Shown here in pieces: positions 5,075 to 53,506 of a stretch of 64,000 nucleotides of DNA (positions are counted from its first letter, which is position 1; each line of letters begins with the position of its first letter). The stretch covers positions 1 through 64,000 of the forward strand of contig JAILBT010000111.1 of assembly GCA_024680755.1 (NCBI GenBank). The letters run 5' to 3'. The notes below the pieces were generated by a model. It saw nothing but the letters and a program-made list of their open reading frames with translations, was not told the origin of the DNA and made no database searches. The DNA is from Prevotella sp. Its GTDB lineage: Bacteria > Bacteroidota > Bacteroidia > Bacteroidales > Bacteroidaceae. Position numbers and translations under genes: made by a program.

Positions 5075-5079
5075 CACCG

Positions 5080-5147
5080 TGTTTTTCATAGTATTAGATT
5101 TAAGGTTAACAAAAGGTTGGGTCTCAGCGGAGACCCTTTTTTATTTT
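5080..5147 (+). ncRNA. Candidate short RNA between a TAnnTTTG box and an intrinsic terminator
   Basis: TACCTTTGCACC then GTGTTTTTCATAGTATTAGATTTAAGGTTAACAAAAGGTTGGGTCTCAGCGGAGACCCTTTTTTATTTT; no ORF. Confidence 0.5.
5119..5147 (+). terminator. Intrinsic terminator GGGTCTC-AGCG-GAGACCC-TTTTTTATTTT
   Basis: Perfect 7-bp stem plus T-tract; abuts the mfd stop codon on the other strand. Confidence 0.8.
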
Positions 5148-8100
5148 AGCTCTCCGCGTTCGCCATTTCCTTCATTATTTTCACGGCTGCCTCGACGGTA
5201 GGCACGTCGGTGACATACATCGAACGATGTCCGTTCTGCTCGCGCAGCTGGCAGCGTCGGGCGTTGCGTGCCACATAGCTGAGAATGTTGCCGAAGGTAT
5301 CGCTCTGGTAGAACGGACTGCTGTCGGCCTTCACGAAATAGAGGAACATACGCTGCTGCTTGAGCATGACCTGCTCGCAGCCCAAATGCTTTCCCAAGCG
5401 TCGCAGCACGACCACCTGCATCAGCTCCTCTGCCTGTGGCGGCACGGGGCCGAAGCGGTCCTCGAGCCGCTGGCGGTATGCCAGCAGCGCGTCGTCGGTC
5501 TCGATGTTGTCCAGTTCGCGGTAGAGCAGCATACGCTCTGAGTCGGTGGGCACATAGGTGTCAGGAAAATACATCTCCAGGTCGCTGTCCAGGGTGCAGT
5601 CGCTCACGAAGGCCGTCTGCCGGCTGAAGGGTGAGCGGTATGCCGCCGCTTCTGCTTCAGCATCTGCCCGTGACGCACGTCCGTTGCCGTGTTGGCTCTG
5701 CTGGCTGGCAGACCTTTCACCATTCGTTTTCAGACCTTCTTTGTCGCTCACCTCATTTCTGAGCTCGGTCATAGCCTCGTTCAGTATCTTCTGATACGTC
5801 TCGTAGCCCAGGTCAGAGATGAAGCCACTCTGCTCGGCCCCCAGCATGTTGCCGGCGCCGCGTATGTCCAGGTCTTGCATGGCGATGTGTATGCCCGAAC
5901 CCAGTCCGGAGAAATTCTCCAGCGCCTCCAGTCGTCTGCGGCTGTCCACGGGCAGCGCCGACAGCGGGGGTGCCAGCAGGTAGCAGAAGGCCTTGCGGTT
6001 GCCGCGGCCCACGCGTCCGCGCATCTGGTGCAGGTCAGACAGTCCGAAGTTATGCGCACCGTTGATGATGATGGTGTTGGCGTTGGGTATATCGATGCCG
6101 TTCTCGACGATGGTGGTCGAGAGCAGCACGTCGGAGTCGTGATTGGCAAAGTCGAGTATGACCTGCTCCAGCTCGGCCGGCGGCATCTGTCCGTGGCCGA
6201 TGGCCACGCGCGCATCGGGTACATATTTATTTATGAGCTCCTTCAGGTGTGGCAGGTCAGAGATACGGTTATTGACGAAATAGACCTGCCCGTTGCGCGA
6301 CAGCTCGAAGTTGACGGCCTCGGCGATGATATCGGCCGAGAAGATGTGTATCTCCGTCTGTATGGGATAGCGGTTTGGCGGTGGTGTCTGCATGACGCTC
6401 AGGTCGCGCGCCCCGACGAGCGAGAACTGCAGTGTGCGCGGTATGGGTGTGGCGCTCATGGTGAGCGTATCCACGTTGGTCTTCATCTGTCGCAGCTTCT
6501 CTTTGACGGCCACGCCGAACTTCTGTTCCTCGTCGATGATGAGTAGTCCCAGGTCGTGGAAGCGCACCGTCTTACCAATCAGCTTGTGCGTGCCTATCAG
6601 TATGTCTATCTTTCCCTCGGCCAGGTCGGCCAGCAGTTGCTTGGTCTGTCTGGTGCCCCGCGCCCTTGAGAGATACTCCACCCTGACGGGCATGTCGCGC
6701 AGGCGGCTGCTGAAGGTGCGGTAGTGCTGGTAGGCCAGCACCGTTGTCGGCACAAGCACGGCCGTCTGCTTGCCGTCGGTGGCAGCCTTGAAAGCGGCTC
6801 GCACGGCCACCTCCGTCTTGCCGAAGCCCACGTCGCCGCACACCAGCCGGTCCATTGGCCGCGGTCGCTCCATGTCGGCTTTCACGTCTTGCGTGGCCTT
6901 CATCTGGTCGGGAGTGTCCTCATAGAGGAACGACGCTTCGAGCGCCTGCTGCAAGTAGCCGTCGGGACTGTATGCGAAGCCGCGCTGCCGCTGCCGGCTG
7001 GCATACAGGCGTATCAGGTCGCGCGCAATGTCCTTGATGTGCTGCTTGGTGCGCTCCTTCATGCGCTCCCACTGTCCGGTGCCGAGTGTGCTCAGGCGCG
7101 GCGGCTGGCCACCCTCCTGCCCCTTGTATTTCGACACCTTGTGCAGAGCGTGTATGCTGACATAGATGGCGTCGCCCCGCTGATAGACAATCTTGATCAT
7201 CTCCTGATAGGCTGTGGTCTGCCCTGCCCCACCCGCCGGCCGCACTCCGGCCTGCGGTATCGGCAGGCGCACCAGTCCGCCGAAGCGTCCTATGCCGTGG
7301 TCGATGTGCACGATGTAGTCGCCGGGTTCAAACTGCTGCAGCTCCTTCAGCGTGAGTGCCACCTTGCCGCTGCGGGCGTGCTCGCTGCGCAGGCTGTACT
7401 TGTGGAAGCGGTCGAAGATCTGATGGTCGGTGAAAGCGCACGCCCGGGCATCGTCGCAGACGAAGCCCTCGTGCAGCGTGCTGTCGATGGGCTGAAAGGC
7501 GATGTCGCCCGTTCCTTTCTGCTTCAGCTCGTCACTCTCGAGTATCTCTTTGAGTCGCTCCTGCTGCTTGCGGCTGTCGGCCAGTATGTATATGTCGTAG
7601 CCGCGCAGACGGTAGTCGTCGAGCGTCTTGGCCAGCAGCTCAAAATTCTTATGGAACAGTGGCTGCGGAGCTGTCGAGAAGGCTATTGCCGTCGTGCTTC
7701 GTCCCGGTGTCTGCGGCTTTATGGCCTCTGCCGCCGTCAGCTCTATATGTCGCAGTCGGGCCACGTCCTGATTCCATTGTCCGGGCTGGATGAGCTGGCT
7801 CTCGGCCCGCATGGCCTTCACCATCTCTGCCCTGTCCACCTCGGGTGCGTCGGCCAGGCGCTCCTCGATGGCCTGTGCCGAGAAGCCCTCGCGGTAGCAT
7901 CGCTCGACGACGTCGGCCACATAGCGGAAGTTCTTCGCCACCACCAGCGCTCCGTCGGGCAGGAAGGTCAGCAGCGACACCTTGTCTTGCCGTCCGGCCA
8001 TCTCGGGCACAATGTCCACCGCGTCGCGCTGTTCGCTCGAGAGCTGCGTCTCTACCTCGAACGAGCGGAGCGAGTCAACCTCGTTGCCGAAGAAGTCGAT

Positions 8101-9359: not shown

Positions 9360-9550
9360 CGGTGTAATCGGAGAAATCGGAGAAATCAGAGTATTCTGAG
9401 TAATCGGAGTAATCGGAGTAATCTGAGTATTCGGAGTAATCTGAGTATTCAGAGTAATCTGAGTATTCAGAGTAATCAGAGTAATCTGAATAATCTGAGT
9501 ATTCAGAGTAATCAGAGTAATCAGAATACTCTGACCACTCAGAATAATCA
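9360..9550. repeat. 9-mer tandem array (AGAGTAATC/CGGAGTAAT)n, locus 1
   Basis: gagtaatcggagtaatcggagtaatctgagtattcggagtaatctgag...; GATTACTCT on the minus strand. Confidence 0.95.
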
Positions 9551-11223: not shown

Positions 11224-11380
11224 AGCGATTGTATTGTATGTTAGCTATCAGGTTATGTTTTTCGGCCGCTAAGGTACGCATTATTTTTCACACCGCAAAA
11301 CACATGCGCCAAAAAAACGCCCCGCCGCGCACTATCCATCAGTTTTCCGCCCCAGACTTTGCGTAATGAAAGAAAAAACG

Positions 11381-11388
11381 TAACTTTG
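11381..11388 (+). promoter_or_regulatory. -7 box TAACTTTG with TTTG about 19 nt upstream (-33-like)
   Basis: gactTTTGcg-like element near 11358 and TAACTTTGCGGCGCACAAG; hairpin copy A follows directly. Confidence 0.6.
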
Positions 11389-11398
11389 CGGCGCACAA

Positions 11399-11466
11399 GT
11401 AGGAGGCGACGTGCCCCACGTCGCAATCAAGCAGACTGTTGCGACGTACCCCACGTCGCCTCCTAC
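11399..11466. repeat. Composite palindrome, copy A
   Basis: GTAGGAGGCGACGTGCCCCACGTCGCAA - tcaagcagactg - TTGCGACGTACCCCACGTCGCCTCCTAC; the arms pair with each other and each arm is also a small hairpin. Confidence 0.95.
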
Positions 11467-11504
11467 TACAAAGCTACACACAAATAGCCACGACAAACGA
11501 AAAG

Positions 11505-11550
11505 TCCGGGCCGTGACACCCACGAGAGGTTCACGGCCCGGATTCTTTTG
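11505..11550. terminator. Bidirectional intrinsic terminator TCCGGGCCGTGA-N14-TCACGGCCCGGA
   Basis: Perfect 12-bp stem; TTCTTTTG on plus, CTTTTCG on minus. Likely terminates the minus-strand gene ending at 11621. Confidence 0.85.
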
Positions 11551-11620: not shown

Positions 11621-14600
11621 TCACTTGACGACAACCTTCTTGCCACCAATGATGTTCAGACCCTTGCGGGCTTTCGTCACACGCTGGCCGTTCAGGTTAT
11701 AGATCTGAGCTCCGTTCAGCACGGCTGTCTTGACGTTGCTGATGCCGGTGGGCTCGCCGTTGTAGTTGCAATAGATGTAGCCTCCGAACCAGTCGTCACC
11801 ACCGTCGGCGTTCGGACGGAAGTAGATGGTGTAGTTGCCCTCGCTGTCTACTTTGAAGTTGTCACCTGTGGCAGGATACCAGACACCATTGGTGTCGTTC
11901 ACCTTCATCTCGCTGTTGGCAGGTATGTCGAGCGTTATCATATACTCCACAGTGCCCTCGGCGGCATTCTCGTTAAGCGTGAGCTTGTAGGTGTCAGAAG
12001 CGGTCCAGTTGTTGAACGTACCCACGAGGTAGTAGTCGGGACTGTAGGTATTTTTCACATACTTCACGTTCTTGAACGACAGCCAGTGAATGTTGTTGTC
12101 GGCAGCCACGTTGAACTTGATCTTGAGCACGCCGTCCTCTCCAACAGTGCCGATGGCTACGAAGTTACCATGTATGCGCTGGTTGTTGTTAGCGCCAGCG
12201 ACCTTTACGTCGCCGCCACAGACATTGACGGCCTGGCCGTCGTTCAGCTGCATGGTGACGCCATATCCATCGGCTTCGCCAGCATTCTCTTTGGTTGCAA
12301 CGCGCACCCAAGCCGACACCTTATATGTGCCGGGCTCCAGGCCGGTCATGGTAGCGGTCATCGTCTTTTCTGCCAGAGCAGCATTGGCATCGGCGTAATA
12401 TTCGAAGAAAGGAACCTTGAAGTCGGTGCCGTCGCTTTCGCCCTCTGTTGACCAGCTGTTGATGTAGTAAGGAGCGTCAACGAAATCGGGATTGGTGTCC
12501 CAGGCCGACAGCAGGATGTTGTCAATCAGTATGGGAGCTCGCCAGCTTGTGAGAGACGTGCCACTCACGGCGGCCGCCAGGCTATTGGCCTCGGCGTCGG
12601 TCAGTTCCTCAGCCTCGTACTTGGTGTAGTAGCTGTTGAAGACTGTGGTGTAAACATCCTGCTTATAGACGTTGGTATTGGCCAGCTCGGCATCAATCTC
12701 AGCCTTCACCTTGACGAGGTTGGCCACAGCAGCGGCGTAGGCAGCGGCACTGGCCTTAGCGGCAACGATGGCCTTGTCGAGAGCCTCGTAGGTCTCAATT
12801 CCGATTGTAGCCTTTGCAGCGGCGTATGCCGTTGCGGCTGCACTGCGCACGTCCTTGTTCATCTTGCCCTCAGGCATAGTGGCATACAAGTCGTCAACCG
12901 ACTGCTCGGTGATGGCTGCGCCAACATACTCTACCTTGCAGTTCTTGAAGGCCATCCAGTTGAAGTTGGCATCTTCAATCTTCACGCCGAAGCGGAACAC
13001 GCCGTCGTCGCCTACCTCGGCCGTCATGGCATAGTTGTCGTAGATACCCTTCATGTTGTTATACTCGAAGCTGTTGCCTGTAGTAAAGGCAATGTCGCGG
13101 CTGCCGGCGAAGAGAGAAGCACCTGCGGGAGCATTGCCGCTCTCGCTGTATGCACGAATCAGGGCCGAGAACTTGTAGAGGCCAGGATCCAAGCCAGCCA
13201 GCGTGTAATAAATCTCGCCGTTGCCCAGTACGCCAGCCTTATCGCACCAGTTCTCAATGAACGGTGTCACCATGCCAGTGCCGTCGCTGTTACCCTCTAT
13301 CGACCATGTGTTGATATGGAAGGTCTGGCTGTTGGTGCAGGTCCAGCCATTGAGGCTGTTGTCGGGCAGCTGGCCACCGGCAGCCAGCAGCTTGTAGCTG
13401 TTCACGCTGACGTTGGCAGTGTTGATGGCTTCCGTCAGGGCAGCAACAGCGGTCTCTAAGGCCGTCTGCGATGTCTGGTCAACACCAGTATTGGCAGTGA
13501 TAGCAGCCTGAAGTGCTGCTTTGTAAGAGGCAGACATTGTTTCGTTGAGCAGGGCATTGGCCTCTGCCAGCCTGGCATTATATGACTCAACAAGATCCGA
13601 CATATCGAGCGGTCCGTAGTACATCAGCTGGATGTTGTCAAAGATGCACCAAGCATCAGTACGTGTACATTTTGCGCCAACGGTAATTGTACTGTTCTTC
13701 ACAGCTACCATTTCTGTCCATTCAGTCATGTAATCACCATTGGCAAAATGACCAGAGAATGCATTCATGCCACCATCCTGATTTGTCATCTTAATGAAAT
13801 TGGTTGTGGCATCATTAACATAAAAGACGGGATAATTTTCGTCTGTGACAGTTGCATCGCCGTACGCGCCCTGTCCTCTTAATTTATAGTAACCATTGGG
13901 GACAGTAATAGTCTGGCTCAAGGTGAAGGTGGCATGCCATGACTCTGCACACTTGTTCTCGTCTTTACCGCCGCAAAGGTTCTTGTTGCTGGCCTCCATT
14001 GTCCAAGCACCACTATTACGGTTGTTGCGGTCGAAGTTCTGGTCAAGAATCATGAACGTTGCATCAACGGGGTTCTCCTCGGTAGCGTCGGCCAGTGCCT
14101 CGTCGTAGCCGATAATCTGCCACTGTGCATTGTCAGCAGTGGCGTCGGTAAGATTATTGGCCAGCACCGTGCTGGTGCCATCATAGCCATAGTAGGTAGA
14201 GCCGCTTGACATCGAGTAATTTCCATTGGGAAGCTTGCTAATGGTGACATTAGCGGCAGCACCATCCATGAATGTACCAGTGAAGTAATAGTTGGTTCCA
14301 CCATTGCTCACCTGCGACTCGATGGTGTAAACGCCCTCTCCGGCATGGATGGTGTTGTAGTGACTCTGTGCAAGGAGCGTGGCCTGCGTGCCCCATGAGT
14401 TGCCCGGGCCAAGATACTTGTCGGAGCCTACGTTCTTGAACAGGTACTTGCCGCCGTCAGTGAAGCTGGCGGCTGTTGCACCGTAGAAGCTGATGGTGTA
14501 AGCACTACTATTGATGTCGGTAATGGTGTAAAGCAGTCCGTCAGCGGCAGGAGCTGCAAGGTCGGCCGTCTGGTTCCACCTGCTGTCCCAGTTGTTCTCA

Positions 14601-14857
14601 TTAGATGCGCCGTCCATGCGGCAGAGAATCATGCTGGCATAACTGTCGTCAAACTCAGCACTCCAAACACCATCTGCACCTTCAGTAAACGAGACCCAGG
14701 CGTTTTTCGTGTCCGAGAACATGTAGAGCGCATAACGCTCCGTCGCGTCATCGACATCCCATGCACCAGGTGCAAGGTACACCGTCTTTGCGGCATCAGC
14801 ACTTACTGCTGCGCCCATAGTTAGGGCGGCCGCGAGTAAAAGTTTAAGTTTTCTCAT
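11621..14857 (-). CDS. Large secreted multidomain protein with T9SS-like C-terminal motif
   Basis: Signal peptide MRKLKLLLAAALTMGAAVSADA; repeated beta-rich domains; C-terminus AQIYNLNGQRVTKARKGLNIIGGKKVVVK. Confidence 0.8.
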   Translation of the reverse strand: MRKLKLLLAAALTMGAAVSADAAKTVYLAPGAWDVDDATERYALYMFSDTKNAWVSFTEGADGVWSAEFDDSYASMILCRMDGASNENNWDSRWNQTADLAAPAADGLLYTITDINSSAYTISFYGATAASFTDGGKYLFKNVGSDKYLGPGNSWGTQATLLAQSHYNTIHAGEGVYTIESQVSNGGTNYYFTGTFMDGAAANVTISKLPNGNYSMSSGSTYYGYDGTSTVLANNLTDATADNAQWQIIGYDEALADATEENPVDATFMILDQNFDRNNRNSGAWTMEASNKNLCGGKDENKCAESWHATFTLSQTITVPNGYYKLRGQGAYGDATVTDENYPVFYVNDATTNFIKMTNQDGGMNAFSGHFANGDYMTEWTEMVAVKNSTITVGAKCTRTDAWCIFDNIQLMYYGPLDMSDLVESYNARLAEANALLNETMSASYKAALQAAITANTGVDQTSQTALETAVAALTEAINTANVSVNSYKLLAAGGQLPDNSLNGWTCTNSQTFHINTWSIEGNSDGTGMVTPFIENWCDKAGVLGNGEIYYTLAGLDPGLYKFSALIRAYSESGNAPAGASLFAGSRDIAFTTGNSFEYNNMKGIYDNYAMTAEVGDDGVFRFGVKIEDANFNWMAFKNCKVEYVGAAITEQSVDDLYATMPEGKMNKDVRSAAATAYAAAKATIGIETYEALDKAIVAAKASAAAYAAAVANLVKVKAEIDAELANTNVYKQDVYTTVFNSYYTKYEAEELTDAEANSLAAAVSGTSLTSWRAPILIDNILLSAWDTNPDFVDAPYYINSWSTEGESDGTDFKVPFFEYYADANAALAEKTMTATMTGLEPGTYKVSAWVRVATKENAGEADGYGVTMQLNDGQAVNVCGGDVKVAGANNNQRIHGNFVAIGTVGEDGVLKIKFNVAADNNIHWLSFKNVKYVKNTYSPDYYLVGTFNNWTASDTYKLTLNENAAEGTVEYMITLDIPANSEMKVNDTNGVWYPATGDNFKVDSEGNYTIYFRPNADGGDDWFGGYIYCNYNGEPTGISNVKTAVLNGAQIYNLNGQRVTKARKGLNIIGGKKVVVK

Positions 14858-15068: not shown

Positions 15069-15136
15069 GTAGGAGGCGACGTGTCTCACCTCGCAACAAC
15101 ATGTCAGATTGCGACGTTAGACACGTCGCCCCCTAC
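15069..15136. repeat. Composite palindrome, copy B
   Basis: GTAGGAGGCGACGTGTCTCACCTCGCAA - caacatgtcaga - TTGCGACGTTAGACACGTCGCCCCCTAC. Confidence 0.93.
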
Positions 15137-36589: not shown

Positions 36590-36722
36590 ATTGTCTAATT
36601 GTCTATCTGTCTAAATGTCTAATTGTCTATCTGTCTAATTGTCTATCTGTCTAAATGTCTAATTGTCTAACTGTCTATCTGTCTAATTGTCTATCTGTCT
36701 AATTGTCTATCTGTCTATCTGT
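36590..36722. repeat. 8-mer tandem array (TGTCTAAT/TGTCTATC)n
   Basis: ttgtctaattgtctatctgtctaaatgtctaattgtctatctgtc... Confidence 0.95.
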
Positions 36723-36748
36723 CAAACCTTAAAGCATAAAGATCTATC

Positions 36749-37298: not shown

Positions 37299-37306
37299 TA
37301 ACTTTG
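37299..37306 (+). promoter_or_regulatory. -7 box TAACTTTG upstream of the secreted-protein gene at 37425
   Basis: tataTAACTTTGCAGCGCACAAGTCGACTCCTACTACAAG: same leader as copy A but with the palindrome collapsed. Confidence 0.65.
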
Positions 37307-37424
37307 CAGCGCACAAGTCGACTCCTACTACAAGCCTTGCTAAGTATATATAAATCGATTAGAAAGTGTTAATTATCTGCATAACCATCATTAAACCATA
37401 TTACTAACCAATTCTTTTAACACA

Positions 37425-39602
37425 ATGAACAAAAATTTACTCAAATCCATGCTCGTAGCAGCCGGCATGACTGCCAGCATGGGGGCATGGGCGCAGGCTG
37501 ATGTCACAAGCCAGTACCTAACCAATGCCGATTTCTCTCAGGGTACACCTATCACCGTGGGCGTTTGCACCTATGCAAAGGACATGACAAACAATGGTAC
37601 TGAGTACAGCCAGCTTGTTCCTGTTGAAGGCTGGGATATTCCTGCAAACGGCGATGCCCGTGCCGGAGGTCTAGTGGCCTTTGGCTCTGGAGTATGGATT
37701 GGTGGACCCGGCTATGTGGCCCCGTTGACCAACAGCGACGGTGAATCTACAGGCAACATTCTGGGTCTGGTGGGCGTATGGACCGGTACAGCTCAGTACA
37801 CTCAGAACGCTACTCTCCCCGCAGGCACATACACCTTGGTGCTTGGAGTTTACAATTCTAAAGGTGGCACATCGGCCTTCAGCAAGAATTTGATAGGCTT
37901 CATTGAGAACGGCGGAACAGAACACCTTGCCACCACAACTACCTATGCTGTGAATACATGGAAATATGAGTTCATCACATTCACACTTGCAGAGGAAACA
38001 GCAGGTAAGTTCTCACTTGGTTATACATCTGCAAATGCTGGTTCTGGAAGTATGCCACATCTGTTCCTCTCGGGTATCCAACTGTTCAATGGTGAAATTA
38101 ACGCCGAAGAGTACGAGGCAGCCAAGCAGGAGACTCGCGAGTTCAAGGAATACACAATACTTTTGACCGAAGAGATTAACAAAGTCAAGGCTTCCGAGGA
38201 TGCCGACGAATTGGCCGACGCCATAGCTGCTGCAGAGCAGGCTCTTGCTAACGCCACCACCTCTGCGGAGCTGAAGCAGGCCTTGGAGGCACTGAAAGCT
38301 GCAGAGGAGGCTCTGGCCGACAGCAAGGAACTGGCCGAGAATACAGCAAAGCTTGAGGGTTCCAGCTATGCCAATCCTTCGGCAGACCAGCTTGTTAATG
38401 GCAGCTTTGACACCGCTGACCTGGGTTGGAGCCTGAACAATATGAAATATCAGGCGAACAATGAGCGTCCCACCCGTTACATTGAGCAATGGACCTCACA
38501 AGCCAACAATGGCCATCTAAACGATGGTTCTGCTACCCAGACACTGACAAACATGCCTGCTGGTGCATACGTCCTGACGGGTGAAGCAAACGCTGTACAG
38601 CAGGCTAATGCCGAACTGGAAATTACAGGCGTAACAATTAGCGTAAACAGTCAGCCTGTCGATGTGGCTGGACCTTGGCACAACTATGAGATAATCTACA
38701 ACCATCAGGAGGCTGGCGACATCACTGTCACCATCGCATTTACTGAAACCAATGCCAACTGGGTAGCCTTTGATGATTTCAAGCTCGTTTATGGCGGCGA
38801 CTACGAAAAGTATATGCAGGACAAGGACAATCCTCTCCTTGGCGCGAAGAAGGAACTGCAGGAAGCTATTGCTAATGCAACAAGCATAGCAGATGTTCCC
38901 ACAGGCAAGCTTTTCCAGAAAGATGCAGCCGATAAGAAGGCACTCGAAGATGCCGTTGCAGCCGCTCAGGCTGCACTTGACGCAGAGGATGCTACTCAGG
39001 AGAGCCTTGCAGCCGCTAAGACCACGCTTGAGGCAGCTGTTGAAGCATTTAAGGCTGCCGGTGTAGTCTTGCCTGACGCAGACAAGGCCTATGTGTTCCA
39101 GCTGATGCAGAAAGACAGCAACACAAAGCCCGCCGCTTCTGTTTACCTCGCTCTTAACGTAACGGAAGAGACCAGCGACGTTGTGCTGTCTGACGCAGAG
39201 TATCCTTTCTATTTCGAAGCAACTGAAGGAGGCTATTTCCTGAAAGCTACCGATACAGAGAACTATGTTGGCATAGCAGGCAACAACAACTGGACTATGA
39301 GTGCAGATGCTGACAAGAAGGCTGTCATCACGGTCGAAGTAATGGCTGATGGATACTACGCCTTGAAAGAAGCTAAAGGTTACATAGGTGTTGATAACGT
39401 AGAGGCAGGTTCTTTATGCTATGCAAACAAGGCCGTCAGCAACGAATGGGAAATCATTGCCGGCACTCCGACCGGCCTTACCACCGTCAACACTGCTGCC
39501 GCTGCCGGCAACGCTGCCATCTACAACCTCGCTGGCCAGCAGGTGAAGAGCGCTCAGAAGGGCCTCTACATCAAAAACGGACGCAAGTATATCGTAAAGT
39601 AA
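37425..39602 (+). CDS. Large secreted protein with T9SS-like C-terminal motif
   Basis: Signal peptide MNKNLLKSMLVAAGMTASMGAWAQA; C-terminus AAIYNLAGQQVKSAQKGLYIKNGRKYIVK. Confidence 0.8.
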   Translation: MNKNLLKSMLVAAGMTASMGAWAQADVTSQYLTNADFSQGTPITVGVCTYAKDMTNNGTEYSQLVPVEGWDIPANGDARAGGLVAFGSGVWIGGPGYVAPLTNSDGESTGNILGLVGVWTGTAQYTQNATLPAGTYTLVLGVYNSKGGTSAFSKNLIGFIENGGTEHLATTTTYAVNTWKYEFITFTLAEETAGKFSLGYTSANAGSGSMPHLFLSGIQLFNGEINAEEYEAAKQETREFKEYTILLTEEINKVKASEDADELADAIAAAEQALANATTSAELKQALEALKAAEEALADSKELAENTAKLEGSSYANPSADQLVNGSFDTADLGWSLNNMKYQANNERPTRYIEQWTSQANNGHLNDGSATQTLTNMPAGAYVLTGEANAVQQANAELEITGVTISVNSQPVDVAGPWHNYEIIYNHQEAGDITVTIAFTETNANWVAFDDFKLVYGGDYEKYMQDKDNPLLGAKKELQEAIANATSIADVPTGKLFQKDAADKKALEDAVAAAQAALDAEDATQESLAAAKTTLEAAVEAFKAAGVVLPDADKAYVFQLMQKDSNTKPAASVYLALNVTEETSDVVLSDAEYPFYFEATEGGYFLKATDTENYVGIAGNNNWTMSADADKKAVITVEVMADGYYALKEAKGYIGVDNVEAGSLCYANKAVSNEWEIIAGTPTGLTTVNTAAAAGNAAIYNLAGQQVKSAQKGLYIKNGRKYIVK

Positions 39603-39671: not shown

Positions 39672-39820
39672 ATGTCTATCTGTCTAAATGTCTAATTGTC
39701 TAACTGTCTAATTGTCTAACTGTCTAATTGTCTAACTGTCTAATTGTCTAACTGTCTAACTGTCTAACTGTCTAATTGTCTAACTGTCTAACTGTCTAAT
39801 TGTCTAAATGTCTATCTGTC
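39672..39820. repeat. 8-mer tandem array (TGTCTAAT/TGTCTAAC)n
   Basis: tgtctaactgtctaattgtctaactgtctaattgtc... Confidence 0.95.
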
Positions 39821-52165: not shown

Positions 52166-52176
52166 CAGCCGGCAAG

Positions 52177-52278
52177 CAGGAGGCGACGTGTCTCACGTCG
52201 CTATCCAGCTGACTGTTGCGACGTGTCTAACATAATATTATAGCTGGTTGTTGCGACGTGAGACACGTCGCCTTCTAC
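52177..52278. repeat. Composite palindrome, copy C (expanded, three GCGACGTG units)
   Basis: CAGGAGGCGACGTGTCTCACGTCGC...TTGCGACGTGTCTAAC...TTGCGACGTGAGACACGTCGCCTTCTAC. Confidence 0.92.
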
Positions 52279-52318: not shown

Positions 52319-53506
52319 ATGCTTAAAGACTTTAACTTTTACGCTCCGACGCGTGTGGTGTTCGGCCGCGATAGCGAGGAGCAGCTTCCGTCGCTGCTGC
52401 GTCAGGCCGGTGCCACGAAGGTGCTGTTACACTATGGCGGCGGCTCGGCGCGTCGTTCCGGCCTGTTGGACAAGGTGGAGCAGATGCTTCAGCGCGAGGC
52501 TATCAGCTACGTCGAGCTTGGTGGCGTGGTGCCCAATCCTCTGCTGTCAAAGGTGGTAGAGGGTATCGCCCTTTGCCGTCGTGAGAATGTCGATTTCATT
52601 CTGGCCGTTGGCGGCGGCAGCGTCATCGACTCAGCCAAGGCCATAGGCTATGGTGTGGGCTACGACGGCGACGTGTGGGACTTCTGGTGCGGGCGTGCCG
52701 TGCCAGCGTCGTGCCTGCCGATAGGTGTGATGCTGACCATACCGGCAGCCGGCAGCGAGATGTCGAGCAGCTGCGTCATCACGCGCGACGAGGGGCTGCT
52801 GAAGCGCGGCGTCAACAGCGACCTGTGTCGCTGTCGCTTCTGCATCATGAATCCCGAGCGCACCTATACCCTCCCACCCTATCAGACGGCAGCCGGAGCC
52901 ACCGACATCATGATGCACACGATGGAGCGCTACTTCTCGCGCTATGAAGACATGGCCCTGACCGACGCCCTGAGCGAGGCCCTGCTGCGCACGGTCAAGG
53001 AGGCGGTGTTCCATGTGCTGGCGCGGCCCGACGACTACCGCTGGCGCTCGCAACTGATGTGGGCCGGGTCGCTGGCCCACAACGATCTGACGGAGTGTGG
53101 CACGGAGAAGGACTTCGGCACCCACCGCCTGGAACACGAGCTGAGCGCCCTGTTCGGCGTGACCCACGGCGCTGGCCTGGCTGCCCTGTGGGGGTCGTGG
53201 GCCCGGTATGTGGCCGACCGCCACGTGTCGCGCTTCGTGCAGTATGCCGTCAACGTCATGCAGGTGCCAGCCGACTTTGCCCATCCGCGCGAGACGGCGC
53301 TGGCCGGCATCGAAGCCACCGAACGCTTCTACCGCGCCATAGGCATGCCCACCAGCATACCTGAGCTGATAGGCAGGCCGGCCACCGATGCCGAGATACG
53401 GCAGATGGCCGACAAGTGCAGTCGCGGCGGCACCATCACCGTGGGGGCAATGGAGGTGCTTCAGCAGCCCGACATGGAGGCCATCTATCGCATGGCAAAC
53501 GTATAG
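52319..53506 (+). CDS. Iron-containing alcohol dehydrogenase (BDH-like)
   Basis: FDFILAVGGGSVIDSAKAIGYG; metal-site region FGVTHGAGLAALWGSWARYV. Confidence 0.92.
   Translation: MLKDFNFYAPTRVVFGRDSEEQLPSLLRQAGATKVLLHYGGGSARRSGLLDKVEQMLQREAISYVELGGVVPNPLLSKVVEGIALCRRENVDFILAVGGGSVIDSAKAIGYGVGYDGDVWDFWCGRAVPASCLPIGVMLTIPAAGSEMSSSCVITRDEGLLKRGVNSDLCRCRFCIMNPERTYTLPPYQTAAGATDIMMHTMERYFSRYEDMALTDALSEALLRTVKEAVFHVLARPDDYRWRSQLMWAGSLAHNDLTECGTEKDFGTHRLEHELSALFGVTHGAGLAALWGSWARYVADRHVSRFVQYAVNVMQVPADFAHPRETALAGIEATERFYRAIGMPTSIPELIGRPATDAEIRQMADKCSRGGTITVGAMEVLQQPDMEAIYRMANV

Follow-up and report, generated by a model that had tools for sequence, protein, structure and literature searches.

A collapsed REPIN in a Prevotella promoter leader, probably the outcome of hairpin-driven deletion

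Why does the gene at positions 37425-39602 have a short leader that matches both flanks of a palindromic element found elsewhere in the same genome, with the centre of the palindrome missing? The stretch concerned (37299-37335, TAACTTTGCAGCGCACAAGTCGACTCCTACTACAAGC) could represent a deletion, an enzymatic excision or a site that the palindrome had never entered. The window, by which we mean the whole 64,000-nucleotide stretch of DNA analysed, lies on contig C115 of a Prevotella MAG of 2.53 Mb in 146 contigs that is 80% complete, referred to below as the host genome. The 5' leader of the gene reads TAACTTTGCAGCGCACAA-GTCGACTCCTAC-TACAAG and, together with its promoter box and gene, is made up as follows.

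37299-37306, plus strand: Bacteroidetes-type -7 promoter box TAACTTTG (TAnnTTTG), assigned from the sequence with the consensus of PMC7366714.
37307-37316, plus strand: head of the leader element, CAGCGCACAA; an identical head precedes intact REPINs at many promoters.
37317-37328, plus strand: remnant of the right-hand REP arm, GTCGACTCCTAC, the 12 nt of the right palindrome arm that were kept (consensus GTCGCCTCCTAC, with one change); the scar is at its left edge, with GT microhomology.
37329-37334, plus strand: TACAAG, where a diverged 3' tail begins; copy A has TACAAAG here and most copies TGCAAAG.
37425-39602, plus strand: the gene led by the collapsed element, encoding 725 aa with a probable signal peptide, the C-terminal motif KGLYIKNGRKYIVK and no Pfam match.

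The initial annotation had matched these flanks to those of copy A (11380-11475), and the match stands on both sides of the focal site, extending beyond the promoter consensus. The sequence CTCCTACTACAA occurs exactly three times in the host genome, namely in copy A, at the focal site and at C27:10500, where the context is coding-like. About 0.0001 exact matches are expected by chance over 174 promoter slots, and about 0.006 matches to the right arm (at most 2 mismatches in 14) over the promoter slots, making chance a poor explanation that we ruled out; the focal 3' tail is too diverged for confident alignment. The palindrome had been described as almost entirely missing, and its core is indeed gone, but the flank CTCCTAC itself belongs to an arm of the palindrome (GTAGGAG...CTCCTAC); the left GTAG foot is absent and CTCCTAC alone remains. 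The focal stretch is the scar of a GTAG-type REPIN after loss of its core, and a scar as such is ordinary decay.

Three further copies in the window provide the forms with which the scar can be compared.

11399-11466, plus strand: copy A, an intact two-unit REPIN (68-bp palindrome) after TAACTTTGCGGCGCACAA; RNA fold -50.5 kcal/mol, z -7.2.
15069-15136, minus strand: intact REPIN of two units; it stands in the leader of gene 11621-14857, also on the minus strand; RNA fold z -8.2.
52176-52278, plus strand: three-unit REPIN with a degenerate middle unit; the gene whose leader it occupies (52319-53506) encodes an iron-containing alcohol dehydrogenase; RNA fold z -6.5.

No same-strand ORF lies downstream of copy A, which is followed by a terminator-like hairpin at 11500-11547; promoter, REPIN and hairpin together (window 11386-11550) may give rise to a short RNA of about 150 nt. 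Two further structured stretches were seen in the window, a match to the Bacteroidetes FopS small RNA family at 5079-5148 (Rfam RF04319, 80.3 bits) and a long imperfect inverted repeat at 9377-9549, with 83-nt arms that are 73% complementary, overlapping an ORF.

Members of the palindrome family share the structure GTAGGAG-GCGACGTG..CACGTCGC-(16-nt spacer)-GCGACGTG..CACGTCGC-CTCCTAC. We assign the family to the GTAG-type REP doublets (REPINs) because its GTAG-footed palindromes stand in an inverted doublet, the arrangement by which REPs and REPINs are recognised (PMC3733652, PMC3116915). The GTAG tetranucleotide is found at the palindrome foot of family copies, the two inverted REPs form one long predicted hairpin (fold -50 to -68 kcal/mol), and many dispersed extragenic copies occur within one genome. 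The likeness to the REPINs and BIMEs of Pseudomonas and Escherichia covers the GTAG foot, the palindromic stem-loop, the multicopy extragenic occurrence, the folding of an inverted pair and its spacer as one long hairpin, and the asymmetric excision or deletion of doublets, which has been reported there too (PMC3116915, PMC3733652). The family likewise resembles the double-foot REPs of TnpAREP subclass 2.4, single palindromes with GTAG...CTAC at both ends, which are abundant in Cyanobacteria and Bacteroidetes and are thought to come from central deletion of an inverted dimer (PMC6006769).

The host genome has at least 17 promoter-slot copies, and congeners have up to 13; this inventory was compiled from pattern searches and the stretches read, and the assembly is incomplete, with frequent contig breaks at these repeats. 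Almost every copy starts at a fixed distance of 6-7 nt after TTTGCAGC, nearly all lie within about 10-20 nt downstream of the -7 box TAnnTTTG, and a common 3' tail, TGCAAAGCRGTGAAATAACCATTAGTTATATAGAAGC, ends the copies directly before unrelated start codons. We take TANNTTTGCAGC as a marker of promoters because it occurs 174 times in the genome and twice in a reversed control. A tested palindrome or tail pattern was matched by 29 of the 99 promoters read and by none of the other 70; as some of these 70 hold other palindromes on inspection, 29 is a minimum. It is unusual for a repeat family to sit almost always at the transcript start. REP doublets in Pseudomonas fluorescens SBW25 are reported to be random in extragenic space, whereas nearly all those described here are promoter-bound, with a conserved head and 3' tail; the bias could reflect target choice or selection. 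The open-access literature yielded papers on REPINs, RAYTs, GTAG-type REPs and BrickBuilt, but no account of REPINs at the promoters of Prevotella. In the host genome, a second palindrome family (CTACCGGTACGCAGG...) uses this promoter slot too and shares the 3' tail, with near-identical palindromes CTACCGGTACGCAGGTGTCTCACCTGCGG...GTACCAG in L044, L129/L150, L158, L168-L170, L186 and other loci; in L044, a palindrome of this second family precedes a GTAG-type REP within one leader.

The number of units in a copy is 1, 2, 3 or 4, in steps of 35 bp, the four-unit form being found in the congener G085. G085 and the congener G141 differ at one orthologous site, with four units in the former and two in the latter; the flanks there are 93-99% identical and the difference is exactly 70 bp, from which we conclude that unit number changes in place. 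A variable number of internal units (1-4) between a leader and a tail is also the arrangement of the BrickBuilt MITE of Porphyromonas gingivalis, which likewise belongs to Bacteroidales and is intergenic (PMC4596501). In BrickBuilt, however, the units are 23-nt tandem repeats without spacers and promoter elements lie inside the element, whereas here each 35-bp step consists of a 19-bp palindrome and a 16-nt spacer and the promoter lies outside (PMC4596501). No target-site duplication could be demonstrated, apparent AGC+4 repeats being present in some copies (L044, L175 and L164) and absent from most. The repeat at both element ends is of AGC type only, inseparable from the promoter consensus, and no parent transposon was identified.

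RAYT is the enzyme thought to mobilise REPs, and some of the relatives encode one beside the same repeats. Both G085 and G141 have a 214-aa RAYT (Pfam Y1_Tnp) between GTAGGAGGCGACG repeats, and the HuH motif PNHVHLL is visible in the RAYT protein. A third congener, G041, has a RAYT that is 58% identical to that of G085 and has the exact core GCGACGTGTCTCACGTCGC on both sides; RAYT and REPs lie in frame inside an MmeI-like restriction-methylase gene, whose reading frame runs on for 1067 codons of the stretch read. RAYT genes with REPs and the tolerance of an in-frame REP inside genes are shared with TnpAREP subclass 2.4, although there the REPs are inserted within the RAYT gene, and in G041 both RAYT and REPs are inside the methylase-restriction gene (PMC6006769). 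In the G041 reading frame L289 (contig C35, 13-3216), the RAYT part (about 1180-1760) lies within the methyltransferase domain while the frame stays unbroken, and a further in-frame REP lies near 2253-2277. Elsewhere, in G110 (L296, contig C28, 22-2055), a protein resembling a precorrin methyltransferase continues in frame, through a repetitive APREDD stretch, into a RAYT-like domain. Strong RAYT homologues were found in 3 of 7 element-bearing genomes and in 1 of 193 others (Fisher P = 1e-4), a statement of co-occurrence only. A search of the host MAG (80% complete) with the relatives' RAYTs found no cognate RAYT, so the REPINs are either orphaned or served by a RAYT in the missing fifth of the genome. 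The two Y1_Tnp genes that the host does have (L057 and L058) were ruled out as cognate, since these REPs do not occur within about 1.5 kb of either.

A single 56-bp deletion with GT microhomology (2 bp) and one substitution lead from the two-unit consensus to the focal site. The same 56-bp scar is present at two other promoters of the host genome (C3:34337-34362 and C70:100032-100057), the microhomology being 2 bp at the focal site, 2 bp on C3 and 4 bp on C70; with up to 3 mismatches allowed, these three were the only matches, none being found in 397 other congeners. Fully collapsed promoters comprise those at C3:34337 and C70:100032 and others on C125, C45, C5 and C59, and in the congener G034 the head joins the tail directly. 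When the collapsed forms were each modelled as one deletion of the two-unit consensus, the other junctions fell at differing positions with microhomologies of 1-4 bp. Breakpoints placed at random would seldom give a summed microhomology this large (six junctions, P = 0.003; the four strictest, P = 0.015), in a test that covers few events and uses heads inferred from the consensus. The arm remnant, the single deletion with one substitution, the recurrence of the scar at two more promoters and the other collapsed forms bear out the initial reading of the short leader as a deletion or excision product.

We consider it likely that the focal leader belongs to a RAYT-family REPIN lineage residing in promoter leaders and that this copy collapsed by hairpin-driven deletion. 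Under this reading, a REPIN family spread by RAYT in trans would once have placed a copy in the 5' leader of the 37425-39602 gene, immediately downstream of the -7 box, where its perfect palindrome would have made the locus unstable. Once the hairpin was extruded, replication would slip past it from one short direct repeat to another (GT at the focal site; GCC, GACA or 8-bp REP repeats elsewhere), so that copies would shorten from 4 to 3, 2 and 1 units and end as scars. The focal core would have been lost in a single 56-bp deletion that left promoter and gene intact and deprived the transcript of its predicted 5' hairpin (about -50 kcal/mol). Published accounts already derive single palindromes from REPINs by deletion between the two REPs (PMC3116915, PMC6006769). 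A difficulty for slippage is that three scars have a 56-bp footprint in common although the microhomology is only 2 bp and longer repeats were available.

The shared footprint at three promoters also fits the main rival, excision of the REPIN by RAYT, for which the evidence relative to slippage is mixed. The deletion runs from the left REP, at its GTAG foot, into the right REP, an asymmetry mirroring that of the REPIN excision reads reported in Pseudomonas fluorescens SBW25 (PMC3116915). Nevertheless, 10-12 bp are left here compared with about 6 bp in SBW25, and we adopt slippage as the mechanism because no cognate RAYT was detected in the 80%-complete host genome, the focal scar is absent from all three RAYT-bearing relatives (G041, G085 and G141), and the other collapsed sites have different junctions with microhomology; RAYT excision as the origin of the focal scar seems somewhat unlikely to us. 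A broader proposal, that REPINs prefer the single-stranded bubble of open promoters and become mobile 5'-leader modules of head, hairpin and tail, with the focal site as one of at least three fixed asymmetric RAYT scars, we regard as rather unlikely. It is improbable that one deletion produced all three identical scars through copying of an already collapsed leader unit to other promoters. The junction is common to the three sites, and head and tail do travel with the palindrome across unrelated genes, but the heads and tails of the three scars differ (GCGCACAA/TACAAGCC, CCCACAA/TGCAAAGCATTTGAC and CCGACA/TGCAAAGCAGTGAAATAACC), and we saw no sign that a unit without its hairpin can move.

With hairpin-driven deletion as the preferred reading, the consequence for the transcript can be described from predicted RNA folds, with transcription start sites inferred from the -7 box. 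For intact leaders, the folds predict a hairpin close to the transcript 5' end with about -50 to -68 kcal/mol (z -6 to -8); the focal leader, in contrast, folds no better than its shuffles (z 0.2). The hairpin may plausibly affect mRNA stability or translation. No Rfam riboswitch or leader RNA was found near the focal site at gathering score in a search of the window, and four leaders searched at E up to 0.1 gave a spurious miRNA match only. An invertible promoter (phase variation) was discarded, as the palindrome does not enclose the -7 box, which is upstream of it, and the 16-nt spacer contains no promoter.

The genes behind the element are varied. A tie to secreted proteins, as the initial annotation implied, is contradicted by element-bearing leaders that precede genes for phenylalanyl-tRNA synthetase, an AEC-type transporter, a restriction enzyme, nucleotidyl- and glycosyltransferases and the iron-containing alcohol dehydrogenase; glycosyl hydrolases were also found behind it. 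The C-terminal likeness noted between the focal protein and that of another element-led gene does hold for the minus-strand gene 11621-14857 (...KGLNIIGGKKVVVK), but the palindrome leading that gene is the one at 15069-15136, and the copy at 52176 leads the dehydrogenase. We dropped the idea of a regulon, the downstream genes being too diverse. A regulatory switch, in which gain and loss of the hairpin would tune expression of the downstream secreted protein, is highly improbable: the element does sit in the 5' leader and unit number does vary at an orthologous site, but the downstream genes have no common function and no dedicated recombinase is present.

How REPINs move and how their positions are chosen is largely unsettled. 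In the host lineage, nearly all copies stand at one set position behind promoters, their unit numbers run cleanly from 4 through 3, 2 and 1 to 0, and some relatives have a cognate RAYT and others do not; with this combination, insertion targeting, hairpin-driven deletion and RAYT excision can be tested in parallel. A further consequence would be that many 5' leaders in this group hold a mobile hairpin whose gain or loss alters the 5' end of the transcript while leaving promoter and gene untouched.

The remaining alternative offered at the outset, an ancestral empty site preceding entry of the palindrome, is scarcely credible: short leaders starting TTTGCAGC are common in the host genome, but the focal leader has 12 nt of REP arm in the correct place and orientation, the unoccupied leaders of the genome's plain promoters lack this arm, and GTCGNCTCCTAC was found in none of 397 other congeners searched. 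Across 200 congeneric genomes, one per species, the junction between purE and the leader was kept in none, and among the matches listed, similarity at the locus ends within or just after the upstream purE, a few weak gene matches excepted. Homologues of the 37425-39602 gene occur in other contexts with other leaders. A homologue in an uncultured Bacteroides MAG (L134) has a leader with another palindrome, GGACGCGACACGTCGCGTCC, behind a TAAATTTGC box. In the window itself, imperfect tandem repeats of the type TCTAATTGTCTATCTG at 36590-36725 and 39674-39820 flank the region of purE and the 37425-39602 gene.
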